A stretch of DNA of 64,000 nucleotides from Atopobium massiliense (GTDB lineage Bacteria; Actinomycetota; Coriobacteriia; Coriobacteriales; Atopobiaceae). The notes beneath the pieces are model-generated. The model had not been told where the DNA came from and did no database searches. It worked only from the letters and a program-made list of their open reading frames with translations. The stretch spans positions 82,051 to 146,050 of the forward strand of contig OPYK01000002.1 of the NCBI GenBank assembly GCA_900343135.1. Reading direction: 5' to 3'. A program made the translations under genes and the position numbers. This document shows, piece by piece, positions 39,053 to 42,916 of this stretch. Every line of letters begins with the position of its first letter. Within the stretch, counting starts at the first letter, position 1.

Positions 39053-39233
39053 CAAAAAGTCGAATATTACAGGAGATATAGTACCATACTGCAGGAATTT
39101 ATACAATATATGCACAATTATATATGCACAATACAAGCAACTCAAAGGTACATTATGCACTTACCACAGATACAAATAGCAAGGCGGCGCACGCAGTTTT
39201 AATTTGGAGTGTGCGTATGCAGGTGCATTGCAG

Positions 39234-39264
39234 GCAAATGACTCTCACAGCTGTAACGCGGATA
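39234..39264 (+). repeat. Left end of a 31-bp imperfect inverted repeat bounding the locus
   Basis: Its last 14 bp, CTGTAACGCGGATA (39251-39264), are a perfect inverted match to TATCCGCGTTACAG at 41790-41803. The outer 17 bp match at about 10 positions, including ATG and CTCTC. Confidence 0.75.
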
Positions 39265-39268
39265 CGAG

Positions 39269-39420
39269 GAGACTGAAGAGCAATTAGTGCACTGCCTAGC
39301 AGCAGCTAGGCAGTGCGTTTTAGAGGATATTTGAAACGGCCTTGCCGCTTACTAAAACCCATTAAACGCGCCGTTTTGCGATTTTTGCAAGACGGCGCAC
39401 TCATTGCTCTTCAGTCTTCT
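39269..39420. repeat. Element B: branched structure of two head-to-head hairpin units
   Basis: A 20-bp outer stem (39271-39290 with 39397-39416, one mismatch) encloses three hairpins: GCACTGCCTAGC/GCTAGGCAGTGC (12 bp, loop AGCA, 39289-39316), GTTTTAG/CTAAAAC (39317-39323 with 39352-39358) with a small CGGC/GCCG hairpin inside, and GCGCCGTTTTGC/GCAAGACGGCGC (12 bp, 39368-39398). It reads as two inverted copies of one unit (conserved flank, variable hairpin, GTTTTAG). A third single unit is at 41496-41552. The hairpins followed by TTTT could terminate transcription in both directions. Confidence 0.75.
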
Positions 39421-39439
39421 TGTATTGGTGATGTAGAAA

Positions 39440-39540
39440 GTAAATGAGATACACAAACGGGCAGCTGGGAGCTTTGTTGTGGCGAAGTTTCGCGAAAGCG
39501 CACTTCGCAGACAACAAAGCGTCTGCCCGTTTGTGTTTAC
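39440..39540. repeat. Element A: long multi-segment hairpin, copy 1
   Basis: Outer stem ACACAAACGGGCAG/CTGCCCGTTTGTGT (14 bp, 39451-39464 with 39523-39536), a 6/2 internal loop, GCTTTGTTGT/ACAACAAAGC (10 bp), a 1/2 internal loop, GCGAAGT/ACTTCGC (7 bp), a TT/C internal loop and CGC-GAAA-GCG capped by a GNRA tetraloop read on the plus strand. Geometry is identical to copy 2 at 41720-41799. It lies just after the surface-protein stop. Confidence 0.85.
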
Positions 39541-39551
39541 ATATAACAGAC

Positions 39552-41315
39552 TTACTTAACAGCGCTGACTGGCAGAGTGCACCATTTTACTTCTTCTTTA
39601 CGCCATCCAGCTTTTACCATTTGTTCTATCTCTTTAGCATCTGCTGTGTAGTGATGGTAGAACTTCTTCTCGTACGGGTTGTACATGCTATAAAGTTTAT
39701 TGAGCGTTTTGTCTTTATCTTGTGCGCTAAACCACTTTACACCCTCGTTTTTCCAGCCATCCTTAACACATGATGCTACTTCATCTTCATTCATGGTGTA
39801 GTGATGCTCACCTGTGGTTGGGTTGTACAGGCGGTATACGCCGCCTTTTTCTGCATGCTTGTAAATGTAGCCTACTCCACCTTCACTTTTCCAGCCAAGA
39901 CGTACAAGGTTATCGTTTTCAGTCGTTTCTGCAGTAAAGAAATGCTCATGCGTGTAGGGATTGTATAGGCGGTACAGCGTTCCAACACGCGGGTCGGTTT
40001 CTTTCTTTTTAACATCTACCGGTTTGTCGAACTGCGCATACACGGTTATGGTGCTGGTTACGGGTGTTGTGTCGCTAAACGCCTCACCCGTTCCATCGGG
40101 CTTTGTATTCCAGCCCATGAACGTATGCCCTTCTTTTTTAGGATTAGCAGGCATCACACCACCATTAACGGCACCTGTTGAAATGGGTTGCCCTTTTCTT
40201 ACACGTACACTACTTAACACTGCATCATCGTTTTTAAATGTAACAGTACACAGAGATCCCTTGGGCAAAATTTCGTATGTGAATGCACACATAGCAATTG
40301 GGCTTGTCTCACCACCTCGTATATCAAACACAAGCATTTGTCCATCAATAGTACCTGGCTTTTGTGCAACAAACGCGCCATCTTTCAATTTAAAATACGA
40401 GGAGCCCGAAATAAGTGTAGGTCTTCCGTTTTCCTTAAAACCACCGTAATACGTTATCTTTTCTTGTTTATTGCCCGCTTGCTGTATAGTTATCGGATAC
40501 TCAAATTTTTCACCAACTTCAATGGTTGTAGTACCAAGTTGTTGATTGTCAAACGGACCTGGATCTGGATTTGGATTATTGGTATCAGGTTTATCGAAAC
40601 GGAAATTAAAATCACCAAGATTACCTGGCACAACGATCTCTTTAATTTTATTTTTTTGGAAAACACGCGATCCTATACCGGCAAGATAATATGGCTGATT
40701 ATCTGATTCGTTAAGTTTTCCTTTTTCATCGATTATGCCTTCAAACACTACTTTCTCAATCTGATTCCCAATAAACGCAGTGCTATGTAGCGAAACCACA
40801 TTTTTTGGAATAACGAGTGTGCCTTTTATTGTATTGTATCCAAACGCTCCGTACTCAATAACCTTTAAGGATTTTGGCAACACCAGCGTATCTATAAAAT
40901 TATCGGGTTTGCCACTTGTTCTCCCAATAAAAGCAGTTGCCTTAATCGCTTGGATACCCTCAGGAATTACAACATGTCTTGTTTTCTTTAATTTAGCAAA
41001 CCCTTTTTCACTAAAACCTTCCATAGCAACATTTTCCGTATAGGCAGCATGTCCAGGAGTAGCAGGGTGATTTATGTTCATACGACCGCCGATACACTTG
41101 CCCAGCTCTGGATCTTCCGTAATATTAAAGTCTTCTAATGTCCATTGGATAGATTCATCCGTAGATGAGGGTTGAGAACTGGATGAGCTTGGCTCGGCAA
41201 ACGCAGTGTTGCAAAGGAAGAATGGCTGTGCCGACGTGAGCGCGCAAACAACAGAAAGAGCTGCTATGCTCCAGGGTAAGCGCCGATGATGAGTACGAAT
41301 AAGCTGAGTTTTCAT
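39552..41315 (-). CDS. Secreted BspA/InlB-like modular surface protein
   Basis: 587 aa from ATG 41315 (TTGGAG five bases upstream). Signal peptide with cleavage near TAFAEP (about residue 40). Then BspA-type leucine-rich repeats (HVVIPEGIQAIKATAFIG, LVLPKSLKVIEYGAFG, LVIPKNVVSLHSTAFIG; about 115-235), an unassigned beta-rich section, an InlB B-repeat/Flg_new module (EGHTFMGWNTKPDGTGEAF, ending VYAQFDK; about 360-440) and three DUF5648-type repeats (YRLYNPYTHEHFFTA, YRLYNPTTGEHHYTM, YSMYNPYEKKFYHHYTA). No LPXTG signal is seen, so cell attachment may be through the repeats. Adhesin-like role is inferred. Its promoter has a G9 tract and its locus is ringed by hairpin repeats. Confidence 0.88.
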   Translation of the reverse strand: MKTQLIRTHHRRLPWSIAALSVVCALTSAQPFFLCNTAFAEPSSSSSQPSSTDESIQWTLEDFNITEDPELGKCIGGRMNINHPATPGHAAYTENVAMEGFSEKGFAKLKKTRHVVIPEGIQAIKATAFIGRTSGKPDNFIDTLVLPKSLKVIEYGAFGYNTIKGTLVIPKNVVSLHSTAFIGNQIEKVVFEGIIDEKGKLNESDNQPYYLAGIGSRVFQKNKIKEIVVPGNLGDFNFRFDKPDTNNPNPDPGPFDNQQLGTTTIEVGEKFEYPITIQQAGNKQEKITYYGGFKENGRPTLISGSSYFKLKDGAFVAQKPGTIDGQMLVFDIRGGETSPIAMCAFTYEILPKGSLCTVTFKNDDAVLSSVRVRKGQPISTGAVNGGVMPANPKKEGHTFMGWNTKPDGTGEAFSDTTPVTSTITVYAQFDKPVDVKKKETDPRVGTLYRLYNPYTHEHFFTAETTENDNLVRLGWKSEGGVGYIYKHAEKGGVYRLYNPTTGEHHYTMNEDEVASCVKDGWKNEGVKWFSAQDKDKTLNKLYSMYNPYEKKFYHHYTADAKEIEQMVKAGWRKEEVKWCTLPVSAVK

Positions 41316-41383
41316 GGCAACTCCAATAGGTACATATGTGGGTATTTGCCGTCCTTGCACAAACATGTAGGACAGGCATCGAT

Positions 41384-41413
41384 AGTATAACCCCCCCCCG
41401 CAGCATTTTTCAA
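41384..41413 (-). promoter_or_regulatory. Surface-protein promoter with a G9 homopolymer in the spacer
   Basis: Minus strand: -35 TTGAAA (41408-41413), 18-bp spacer that includes nine consecutive G (41391-41399), -10 TATACT (41384-41389). The leader to the ATG is about 62 nt. With eight G the spacer would be the optimal 17 bp and with ten it would be 19, so slippage would tune or switch expression. Confidence 0.85.
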
Positions 41414-41495
41414 GTGTCGCCATGGTAGGTTTTGTCAATATATGTGCAATATGTGCTGATAGAATACCCTGACGTACCAGCAATGCACAGTTCCA

Positions 41496-41552
41496 CTAAA
41501 ACGCGTTGCCTAGCTACTGCTAGACAACGCACTCATTGCTTTTTAGTCTTCC
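41496..41552 (-). repeat. Element B single unit (B')
   Basis: Read on the minus strand: a conserved flank GGAAGACTAAAAAGCAATGA, then GCGTTGTCTAGC/GCTAGGCAACGC (12-bp hairpin, one G-U, loop AGTA), then GTTTTAG. The flank matches element B at 39269-39290, but the hairpin stem is a different sequence. It is a likely terminator 80 bp upstream of the surface-protein promoter. Confidence 0.75.
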
Positions 41553-41593
41553 TTGCTTTGAACAGTAAACCCAAGCTGCACTAAAGCAGGCGC

Positions 41594-41700
41594 CGGAGAG
41601 CTGTTTTGATGTGAAGTTTCGCGTTTATAGACGTGCGTATTTGAATGAAAAACGTGCGCTGCTAGGAGCTACTCAATTTCGAAGTTTCGCGTTGAAAAGA
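41594..41700. repeat. Two degenerate copies of the element A core
   Basis: GGAGAGCT followed by GAAGTTTCGCG (41595-41623) and GGAGCT followed by GAAGTTTCGCG (41665-41691) repeat the left half of the element A core (GGAGAGCT...GCGAAGTTTCGCG at 41732-41760), without the matching right arms. Confidence 0.6.
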
Positions 41701-41719
41701 CACACGGTTGCAATGCATA

Positions 41720-41799
41720 AACGCGGATAGCGGAGAGCTTTGTTGTAGCGAAGTTTCGCGCAAGCGCACTTCGCTTACAACAAAGCGCCTATCCGCGTT
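41720..41799. repeat. Element A: long multi-segment hairpin, copy 2
   Basis: Outer stem AACGCGGATAG/CTATCCGCGTT (11 bp), 6/2 internal loop, GCTTTGTTGT/ACAACAAAGC (10 bp), 1/2 internal loop, GCGAAGT/ACTTCGC, TT/C internal loop, CGC-GCAA-GCG (GNRA loop on the plus strand). The inner stems match copy 1 at 39440-39540, while the outer stem is entirely different yet fully paired. It lies 74 bp after the whiA stop. Confidence 0.85.
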
Positions 41800-41820
41800 A
41801 CAGTGACGAGAGACATGCGC
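41790..41820 (-). repeat. Right end of the 31-bp imperfect inverted repeat
   Basis: TATCCGCGTTACAG (41790-41803) is the perfect inverted partner of 39251-39264. The inner part doubles as the right arm of element A copy 2. Confidence 0.75.
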
Positions 41821-41872
41821 CTGCCTTACATCAATAGAATTCTTATGAGGTTGTTTACTGGTTACAGCATCC

Positions 41873-42916
41873 TTACGGATGTGACGTGCGCGCAAGCTCC
41901 TGCAAACGACAAAGACGATGGTACATTGCCGATTTTGACGCGCGCGGCACAACATACTCGCCGAGCTCGGCAAGCGATACATCAGGGTGCTGCAGCCGCG
42001 CTGTGCAAAATTGCACAAGCGCGCCCGTAAGCTCGTTGGGCGTATACATCGCCTGCACGCGTTTAATAACCTCAATTTGCTCAAGCGCCGAAGCCGAACT
42101 GCGTGCCTGATTTGCAAGCTCAGCATTTACGCGCCTGTTAACATCATTTTTTACGTGCTTAAACTTGCGCACACCCTCGAACGCACGCGCAATGGTGTGC
42201 ACGCCCAAAAAATTCAAAAACCGCACCATACTGTCAAAACTTTTAATGTAGAGCGCAATGCTTGTTTTGCGCTGATTGAGCTTAAACGTAATGCCAACCT
42301 TAGCGGCAAGTTGCACAATACCCTGCGCAAACGCAAGCGACGTGGTAGCAATTTCGAGATGCGACGTTGTGCGCGGATCGGCTATAAACCCACCCGCCAT
42401 AAAACAGCCACGCAAAAACGCCTGCTTGCAGCAGGTATGCGTAAGCAATGCCCAAGGTACGTCACGGTGAAGTGTGCCGGTAGCCGTAAGAATTTGCAGC
42501 TTTGACAAATAGCTATCCATGCGCGGCTGTGTAGGAATTTGTATCATGTAATTGCGCGTTTTGTGCAGGTTGGAATGGCGCACCGTAAGGTACGTTTCCA
42601 TATTAAACAGCTTATGGCTAAGGTTAATAACCAAGCGTGCAATAACGCCCGTTTCGGTTGAAATAATAAGCGACGGCGCAAGGGTTCGAGCACCACCCAT
42701 CCCGCGCGATGCACTATCGCCCGTACTATCGCCCACGGCACCATCTGCAGCAATGCCGCCCGACTCGCCCACACCAGTAGCCTGATGCGTAGTCACCTGC
42801 TCCAACGACAAACTTCCGCAAATGCGAATAATGCCTGATAGCAGGGCATATTCACAGGAAGGACAGCCCGGAGTAATACGTGATAGTTCATCTTTAACCG
42901 ACGCGGTAAATGACAT
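41873..42916 (-). CDS. whiA: WhiA sporulation/cell-division regulator family protein
   Basis: Gram-positive DNA-binding protein (sporulation control in Streptomyces, cell division in Bacillus). 347 aa: LAGLIDADG-like N-terminal domain (MSFTASVKDELSRITPG, RGCFMAGGFIADPRTTSHLE) and C-terminal HTH (HPDVSLAELGEYVVPRASKS). A Gly/Ala-rich insertion at about 45-75 interrupts the first domain. ATG 42916 follows AAAGGCG. It comes 17 bp after rapZ; the yvcK gene that usually stands between them is absent. Confidence 0.95.
   Translation of the reverse strand: MSFTASVKDELSRITPGCPSCEYALLSGIIRICGSLSLEQVTTHQATGVGESGGIAADGAVGDSTGDSASRGMGGARTLAPSLIISTETGVIARLVINLSHKLFNMETYLTVRHSNLHKTRNYMIQIPTQPRMDSYLSKLQILTATGTLHRDVPWALLTHTCCKQAFLRGCFMAGGFIADPRTTSHLEIATTSLAFAQGIVQLAAKVGITFKLNQRKTSIALYIKSFDSMVRFLNFLGVHTIARAFEGVRKFKHVKNDVNRRVNAELANQARSSASALEQIEVIKRVQAMYTPNELTGALVQFCTARLQHPDVSLAELGEYVVPRASKSAMYHRLCRLQELARTSHP

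Follow-up and report, generated by a model that had tools for sequence, protein, structure and literature searches.

Capped palindromic hairpins past gene ends: a repeat family of the Atopobiaceae

Two strong hairpins in a 64,000-nucleotide stretch of the Atopobium massiliense genome (the window; contig OPYK01000002.1) raise the question of what kind of element they represent, and whether it is as RNA or as DNA that their shape is maintained. The genome is 1.55 Mb in 16 contigs, and the GC content of the window is 50%. Element A (39451–39536, with the minus strand as its sense or RNA strand) is located 3′ of a minus-strand surface-protein gene (39552–41315) with LRR_5, List_Bact_rpt and C-terminal DUF5648 domains, the stop codon of which precedes it. 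The second hairpin, element A′ (41720–41799, minus), is found 74 nt past the stop codon of whiA (41873–42916, minus), the gene upstream of it on the sense strand, and is sense to that gene.

In plus-strand letters, the outer stem of element A (ACACAAACGGGCAG at 39451–39464 and CTGCCCGTTTGTGT at 39523–39536) consists of 14 perfect base pairs. It is followed by a 6/2 loop (ctggga/gt), a first inner stem (GCTTTGTTGT at 39471–39480 and ACAACAAAGC at 39511–39520), a 1/2 loop (g/ag), a second inner stem (GCGAAGT at 39482–39488 and ACTTCGC at 39502–39508), a tt/c loop and the tip CGC-GAAA-GCG (39491–39500). The conserved cap (39482–39508, minus) reads GCGAAGT-G-CGC-TTTC-GCG-AA-ACTTCGC in the sense direction. 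Element A′ has a perfect outer stem of 11 bp (AACGCGGATAG at 41720–41730 and CTATCCGCGTT at 41789–41799), the loops cggaga/gc, a/tt and tt/c, inner stems identical to those of element A and the tip CGC-GCAA-GCG. When each strand of both elements was folded as RNA, the described structure or nearly so was obtained; free energies were −47 to −53 kcal/mol and z-scores −8.1 to −9.8, and no shuffled sequence folded equally well. The shared 27-base half-site was matched twice in the window and not once in 100 shuffles. The original prediction of two hairpins with common inner stems on unrelated, perfectly paired outer stems was thus reproduced in both positions and pairing.

Remnants of further elements were also detected in the window. 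Next to A′, which is whole, a type-B element (41651–41691, minus; tip arm, inner arm and outer arm CAGCGCACGTT) and a type-C element (41583–41622, minus; tip arm, inner arm ATCAAAACAG and outer arm GCCTGCTTT) are reduced to their 3′ halves. A 5′ half-copy on the plus strand (39194–39264) comprises the inner 5′ arm of C, a linker and the outer 5′ arm of A′ (AACGCGGATA) and has no hairpin body; a comparison of position 39255 with the copy at C8:70062 suggests that the body was apparently lost between two GCGGATA repeats. The 3′ half-copies at 41583–41691 are diverged.

The window also contains ordinary terminator-like hairpins. One is located downstream of element A (39364–39419, minus; conserved flank GACTGAAGAGCAATGAGTGC) and was recognised by eye, outside the consensus scan, another with the same flank is downstream of the A′/B/C array (41492–41549, minus), and an inverted copy of the module is at 39270–39327 (plus). 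These three and about ten more sites share a fixed 5′ flank, GACTGAAGAGCAATkAGTGC, and a fixed 3′ flank, GTTTTAGTGG, around stems that are fully complementary but unrelated to one another in sequence (GCGCCGTTTTGC, GTTGCCGCRGTGC, GCGCTGCCTTGC, GCACTGCCTGGC). Inverted composites are present on both sides of the surface-protein gene (39230–41824), as if this were a unit with inverted ends: 39230–39264 and 41790–41824 are 80% complementary over 35 nt, and 39270–39327 and 41492–41549 are 83% complementary over 58 nt.

Copies in the genome of A. massiliense were counted from searches and from individually retrieved sequence stretches. A DNA search revealed approximately 10 near-identical copies of element A, 83–99% identical to one another, all in the sense orientation with GAAGTGCGC on the gene strand. 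With the copy at C12:18.5 kb left aside, they are situated just 3′ of the stop codons of paralogous DUF5648 surface-protein genes, about 20 nt past the stop. Mean conservation among the A copies was 91% in the hairpin, 72% in the preceding 260 nt (the gene end) and 67% in the following 140 nt. One copy displayed a compensated outer-stem change (CGGCCAG/CTGGCCG), and several carried uncompensated changes. DUF5648 C-terminal repeats were found in at least 13 reading frames (C8, C9, C10, C12 and C15), some of them open for more than 1200 aa, a large paralogous surface-protein family for a 1.5 Mb genome.

Five sub-types, A, A′, B, C and D, were identified in this genome. A′ has another copy at C8:70 kb. 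Type B has the outer stem AACGTGTGTTG, the inner stem GCTCTATTTTGAAGT and the tip arms GAAGTGCGC and GCGAAACTTC; type C has the outer stem AAAGCAGGC, the inner stem CAGTTTTGAT and the tip arms GGAGTGCGC and GCGAAACTCC; type D (C8:70399) has again a different stem. The single architecture proposed for the two window hairpins holds, but with the half-copies and the further A copies they are no two-copy set, and their outer stems, unrelated as sequences, mark two sub-types that each have copies elsewhere. Since the two belong to different sub-types, the covariation originally read from them is not provable from these two copies and has to rest on relatives.

Six hairpins from other Atopobiaceae genomes were reached by a core-pattern scan of the family and by DNA search. 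All six were 100% paired, and 11 of their 13 outer pairs were compensated. A covariance model (R1) built from these six alone, with the A. massiliense genome excluded, matched element A with an E-value of 4.6e-8 and A′ with 1.1e-8. At E 1e-3 or better, it found matches in 41 of 140 Atopobiaceae genomes; nearly every genome of one genus carries between 1 and 27 copies, and weaker relatives of the hairpin occur in other families of the order. In an alignment of 58 copies, 98.4% of the cells were paired, 18 of 22 pairs showed double changes, and double-change cells (185) far outnumbered single changes (6), a result that none of 500 shuffles reached; selection of copies by the model favours paired stems, and evidence from orthologous sites consequently weighs more. 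G–U pairs were nearly absent from the modelled stems, to which the bias of the model contributes. The near-absence would nevertheless be unusual for a constraint acting at the RNA level.

The part common to all these hairpins is the cap, made up of a 7-bp stem, an internal loop with a G opposite RA, a 3-bp stem and a terminal loop of 3–4 nt. The G opposite RA was found in 87 of 88 measured tips, and 80 of the 88 had a TNC triloop on the sense strand. The stems are variable, with CGC/GCG, CAC/GTG, CTC/GAG and TGC/GCA in the 3-bp stem (P3) and GAAGT/ACTTC, GAGGT/ACCTC, GGAGT/ACTCC and others in the stem below it (P2). Fixed loops on free stems suggest recognition of, or a need for, a particular shape. 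The loop below the cap is mostly TNC/TNC in the relatives. On the opposite strand the loops become GNA, and the TNC/TNC loops give GNAG on both sides of the cap, within a longer stem and not at its end; the A elements of A. massiliense have no GNAG. Antisense folds were slightly more stable in 76 of 93 copies with DNA parameters and in 69 of 93 with RNA parameters, and this small predicted edge does not decide which strand matters.

Among 95 distinct copies, 75 had an ORF stop 13–39 nt upstream in the sense direction, copies starting about 29 nt past the stop codons; 66 copies were sense-only relative to an ORF stop and 2 antisense-only, as counted with a crude ORF caller that confuses some loci. 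The sense-strand form is GAAGTGCGC...GCGRAACTTC across the family. The plus strand, on which the original prediction had read the GNRA tips, is accordingly the antisense strand, as the window genes next to them are read from the minus strand. Nor does the GNRA tip hold as a signature: the exact tips in the genome (n = 14, on the strand read originally) comprised TTTA and GCAA, with 5 each, and GAAA, with 4, and relatives mostly have triloops (TNC in sense).

The carrier genes are mixed and mostly of housekeeping function, and include groEL, pnp, rplX, ftsX and genes for ABC ATPases, IMPDH, a class I tRNA synthetase, a histidine phosphatase, a metallo-hydrolase, malic enzyme, HIT and a pyridine-nucleotide oxidoreductase. 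Two carriers at first considered to be hup and tuf proved to be the histidine-phosphatase family gene and pnp, respectively. At 15 loci the hairpins form inverted pairs, in all of which the sense strands face each other; some are located between convergent genes (L184) and others are not, the second member not always being beside a gene end. A TTTT directly past the hairpin was present in 3 of 93 copies, with a mean of 2.8 T in 10 nt, and this weak enrichment argues that most copies are not canonical intrinsic terminators.

Two orthologous sites allowed the fate of the hairpin to be followed from species to species. Between rplX and rplE, the capped hairpin is kept in most of 28 readable species. 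An ordinary U-tract terminator occupies its place in G104 and G119, the stem is kept and the cap gone in G109 (CCCCCGGTTCATC-TCTTC-GATGAACCGGGGG), the caps are decayed in G111 and G117, and G116 has a fully compensated cap. Downstream of groEL, plain hairpins were found in G112 and G126, with the same basal stem GAGCCCCCGG as in G102; the cap is inverted in place in G101, and the capped hairpin is followed by TTTTT in G103 and G119. An alignment of 20 groEL sites showed 99.5% pairing in the cap helix, with double changes in 7 of 10 pairs and no single changes; in its outer helix, six rows with a different lower loop are out of register by one column. The cap stem was swapped among CGC/GCG, CAC/GTG and CTC/GAG with the G/RA loop retained, and the 130 nt of the 3′ region at capped groEL sites fold into multi-tier hairpins of −63 to −85 kcal/mol. 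Together with the 58-copy alignment, these sites bear out the original proposal that the outer stems are compensated and the structure selected; further copies, which it had put forward as a check, were found in the genome as well as in relatives. In the Olsenella-like genus (e.g. L316 and L307), the strong hairpin or ordinary terminator between rplX and rplE lies within what usually forms one ribosomal-protein operon.

From these sequence comparisons we read the hairpins, with moderate confidence, as a family of capped palindromic 3′-UTR elements of the Atopobiaceae that would act as 3′-end hairpins in the mRNA of the upstream gene and turn over as DNA repeats. Where the hairpins lie, their bias towards one strand and their replacement by ordinary terminators point to a 3′-end element of the upstream mRNA; at both orthologous sites some species carry a cap-less or ordinary hairpin instead. 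In that mRNA the hairpin may end, or help to end, transcription and may protect the 3′ end against exonucleases. The cap may be recognised as a shape by a putative protein or RNase, or may stabilise the hairpin. At the DNA level, elements would be gained, lost and nested within each other's tips. That the elements are transcribed, that they terminate or stabilise the transcript, that the cap has a ligand and how copies spread are all inferred here. Counting against a 3′-end role are the scarcity of TTTT tracts, the separate terminator-like hairpin after element A, the inverted groEL cap in G101, the uncompensated changes within the A set and the inverted-pair loci at which the second member is away from a gene end.

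Evidence of turnover as DNA comes from nesting. At C12:50120–50720 the arms are ordered C5-B5-A′5-A′3-B3-C3, i.e. C(B(A′)), and at C12:18900–19500 the order is A′5-B5-B3-A′3, i.e. A′(B); at both loci the tip arms of one element enclose a second, whole element together with its linkers. The placement of A′ within B is supported by folding. A third array (C8:174050–174560) has the order C5-B5-B3-C3inner-A′3. Nesting in both orders needs at least two events, and nesting, losses and inversion together argue for repeat-like turnover of the DNA.

These observations also lend themselves to a purely DNA-level explanation, in which a mobile palindrome similar to REPs or MITEs, consisting of either hairpin or cap, would be moved as a folded single strand by a transposase acting in trans into hairpin tips near gene ends, any effect on RNA being incidental. 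We consider this possible but rather unlikely. Besides nesting in both orders, it would account for the cap-less rplX stem in G109, the inverted pairs, the near-absence of G–U pairs and the GNA loops of the antisense strand with their slightly higher stability under DNA parameters. REP and BIME sequences, with an unpaired GTAG- or CGTC-like tag at one end, are likewise short palindromes near 3′ ends that occur singly and in inverted pairs (PMC3733652), and the capped hairpins resemble them in being dispersed, intergenic and imperfectly palindromic, with an internal loop close to the tip. The multi-tier stems of 25–40 bp described here, however, exceed the 6–13 bp of REP stems, and their outer stem is unconstrained in sequence; the copies are few, almost without exception sense to the gene, and nested in tips. 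REPs go with a RAYT/Y1 transposase (PF01797), whose gene is flanked by the repeats in the GTAG class. This transposase is absent from the A. massiliense genome (G000) and from G003, G103 and G136, eight such genes in other genomes have no hairpin within 1.5 kb, and viral contigs gave no match to the exact core. Mobility alone would also leave the marked strand bias, the narrow distance to the stop codon and the conservation by descent, with compensated changes, at rplX and groEL to be explained. With the RAYT link failing and the GNAG around the cap an equivocal counterpart of the REP tag, the hairpins are classed as palindromic 3′ repeats and not as REPs.

Reconciling the RNA and DNA sides of the 3′-UTR reading, the cap might be a structure-specific address at two levels, bound at the mRNA 3′ end and, in folded single-stranded DNA, serving as the entry point for elements that insert into the tips of other copies, which would yield Russian-doll palindromes without a RAYT-type transposase. 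This is speculative and has a small chance of being right.

It is improbable that the hairpins are ordinary terminators with a functionless cap, their tips alike only through a few segmental duplications and gene conversion. The A copies do accompany paralogous genes at 83–99% identity, but their hairpins are better conserved than the gene ends and downstream flanks, and across genera caps are kept on unrelated stems and flanks and change by compensated pairs. Rho-independent terminators similarly form a strong hairpin soon after the stop codon, and those with U-tracts occupy the same sites in some species, whereas here there is a conserved cap with defined internal loops and the U-tract is mostly missing. 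It is quite improbable that a dedicated RNA-binding regulator recognises the hairpin and joins the carrier mRNAs into one regulon: the non-canonical G/RA loop is fixed while adjacent pairs covary, yet the carriers are functionally mixed, no candidate protein was identified, and caps decay or disappear at single sites.

Other gene-end repeats differ from the capped hairpins as well. The uptake-signal terminators of Neisseria and Haemophilus (DUS/USS) carry a conserved sequence in gene-end hairpins, hundreds per genome, whereas each hairpin here has one asymmetric cap that changes by compensated pairs, in 1–27 copies per genome. Integron attC sites are folded single-strand hairpins just past stop codons, with R and L boxes, in a cassette array accompanied by an integrase; by eye, the stem bases here show no conserved R boxes or RYYYAAC–GTTRRRY pair, and the carriers are scattered housekeeping genes without a cassette array. 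BOX-like repeats are modular intergenic arrays in which fixed modules at the ends enclose hairpin modules that vary in number; the modular array is common to both, but the sequence here is unrelated and the modules are nested. At gathering and E-value thresholds, Rfam returned only tRNAs for the window and only chance-level miRNA models below their cut-offs for the relatives' hairpins, in agreement with the initial impression of no recognised family. An exact-core scan of GTDB species representatives gave five matches, one of them in an uncultured member of Olsenella, a genus of the Atopobiaceae; the other four came from outside the class, had no outer stem and were taken as chance. Searches of the open-access literature found no description of such hairpins in Coriobacteriia.

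The family, previously unlisted, adds a compact, covarying RNA or DNA shape that accompanies the 3′ ends of groEL, pnp, rplX (immediately ahead of rplE) and other core genes across an actinobacterial genus. It may represent an undescribed means by which Coriobacteriia form or protect the 3′ ends of their mRNAs. With the cap present, decayed, inverted, lost or replaced by an ordinary terminator at a given orthologous site, its effect is directly testable, and the nested copies preserve a natural record of palindromic repeats spreading with no obvious transposase.

Finally, a related hairpin, GGGAACTGCGCTTCGCGAAAGTTCCC within GGTGGCATAG..CTATGCCACC, occurs in about 27 copies in G267, a genome from another family of the order. 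These copies were considered as IS ends and rejected as such, since the 1.7–2 kb between inverted copies are non-coding repeats without a transposase-like ORF. The hairpins are located inside non-coding composite repeats of about 2 kb (e.g. L324 at 900–2900, L325 and L329), often as inverted pairs 1.7–2 kb apart.
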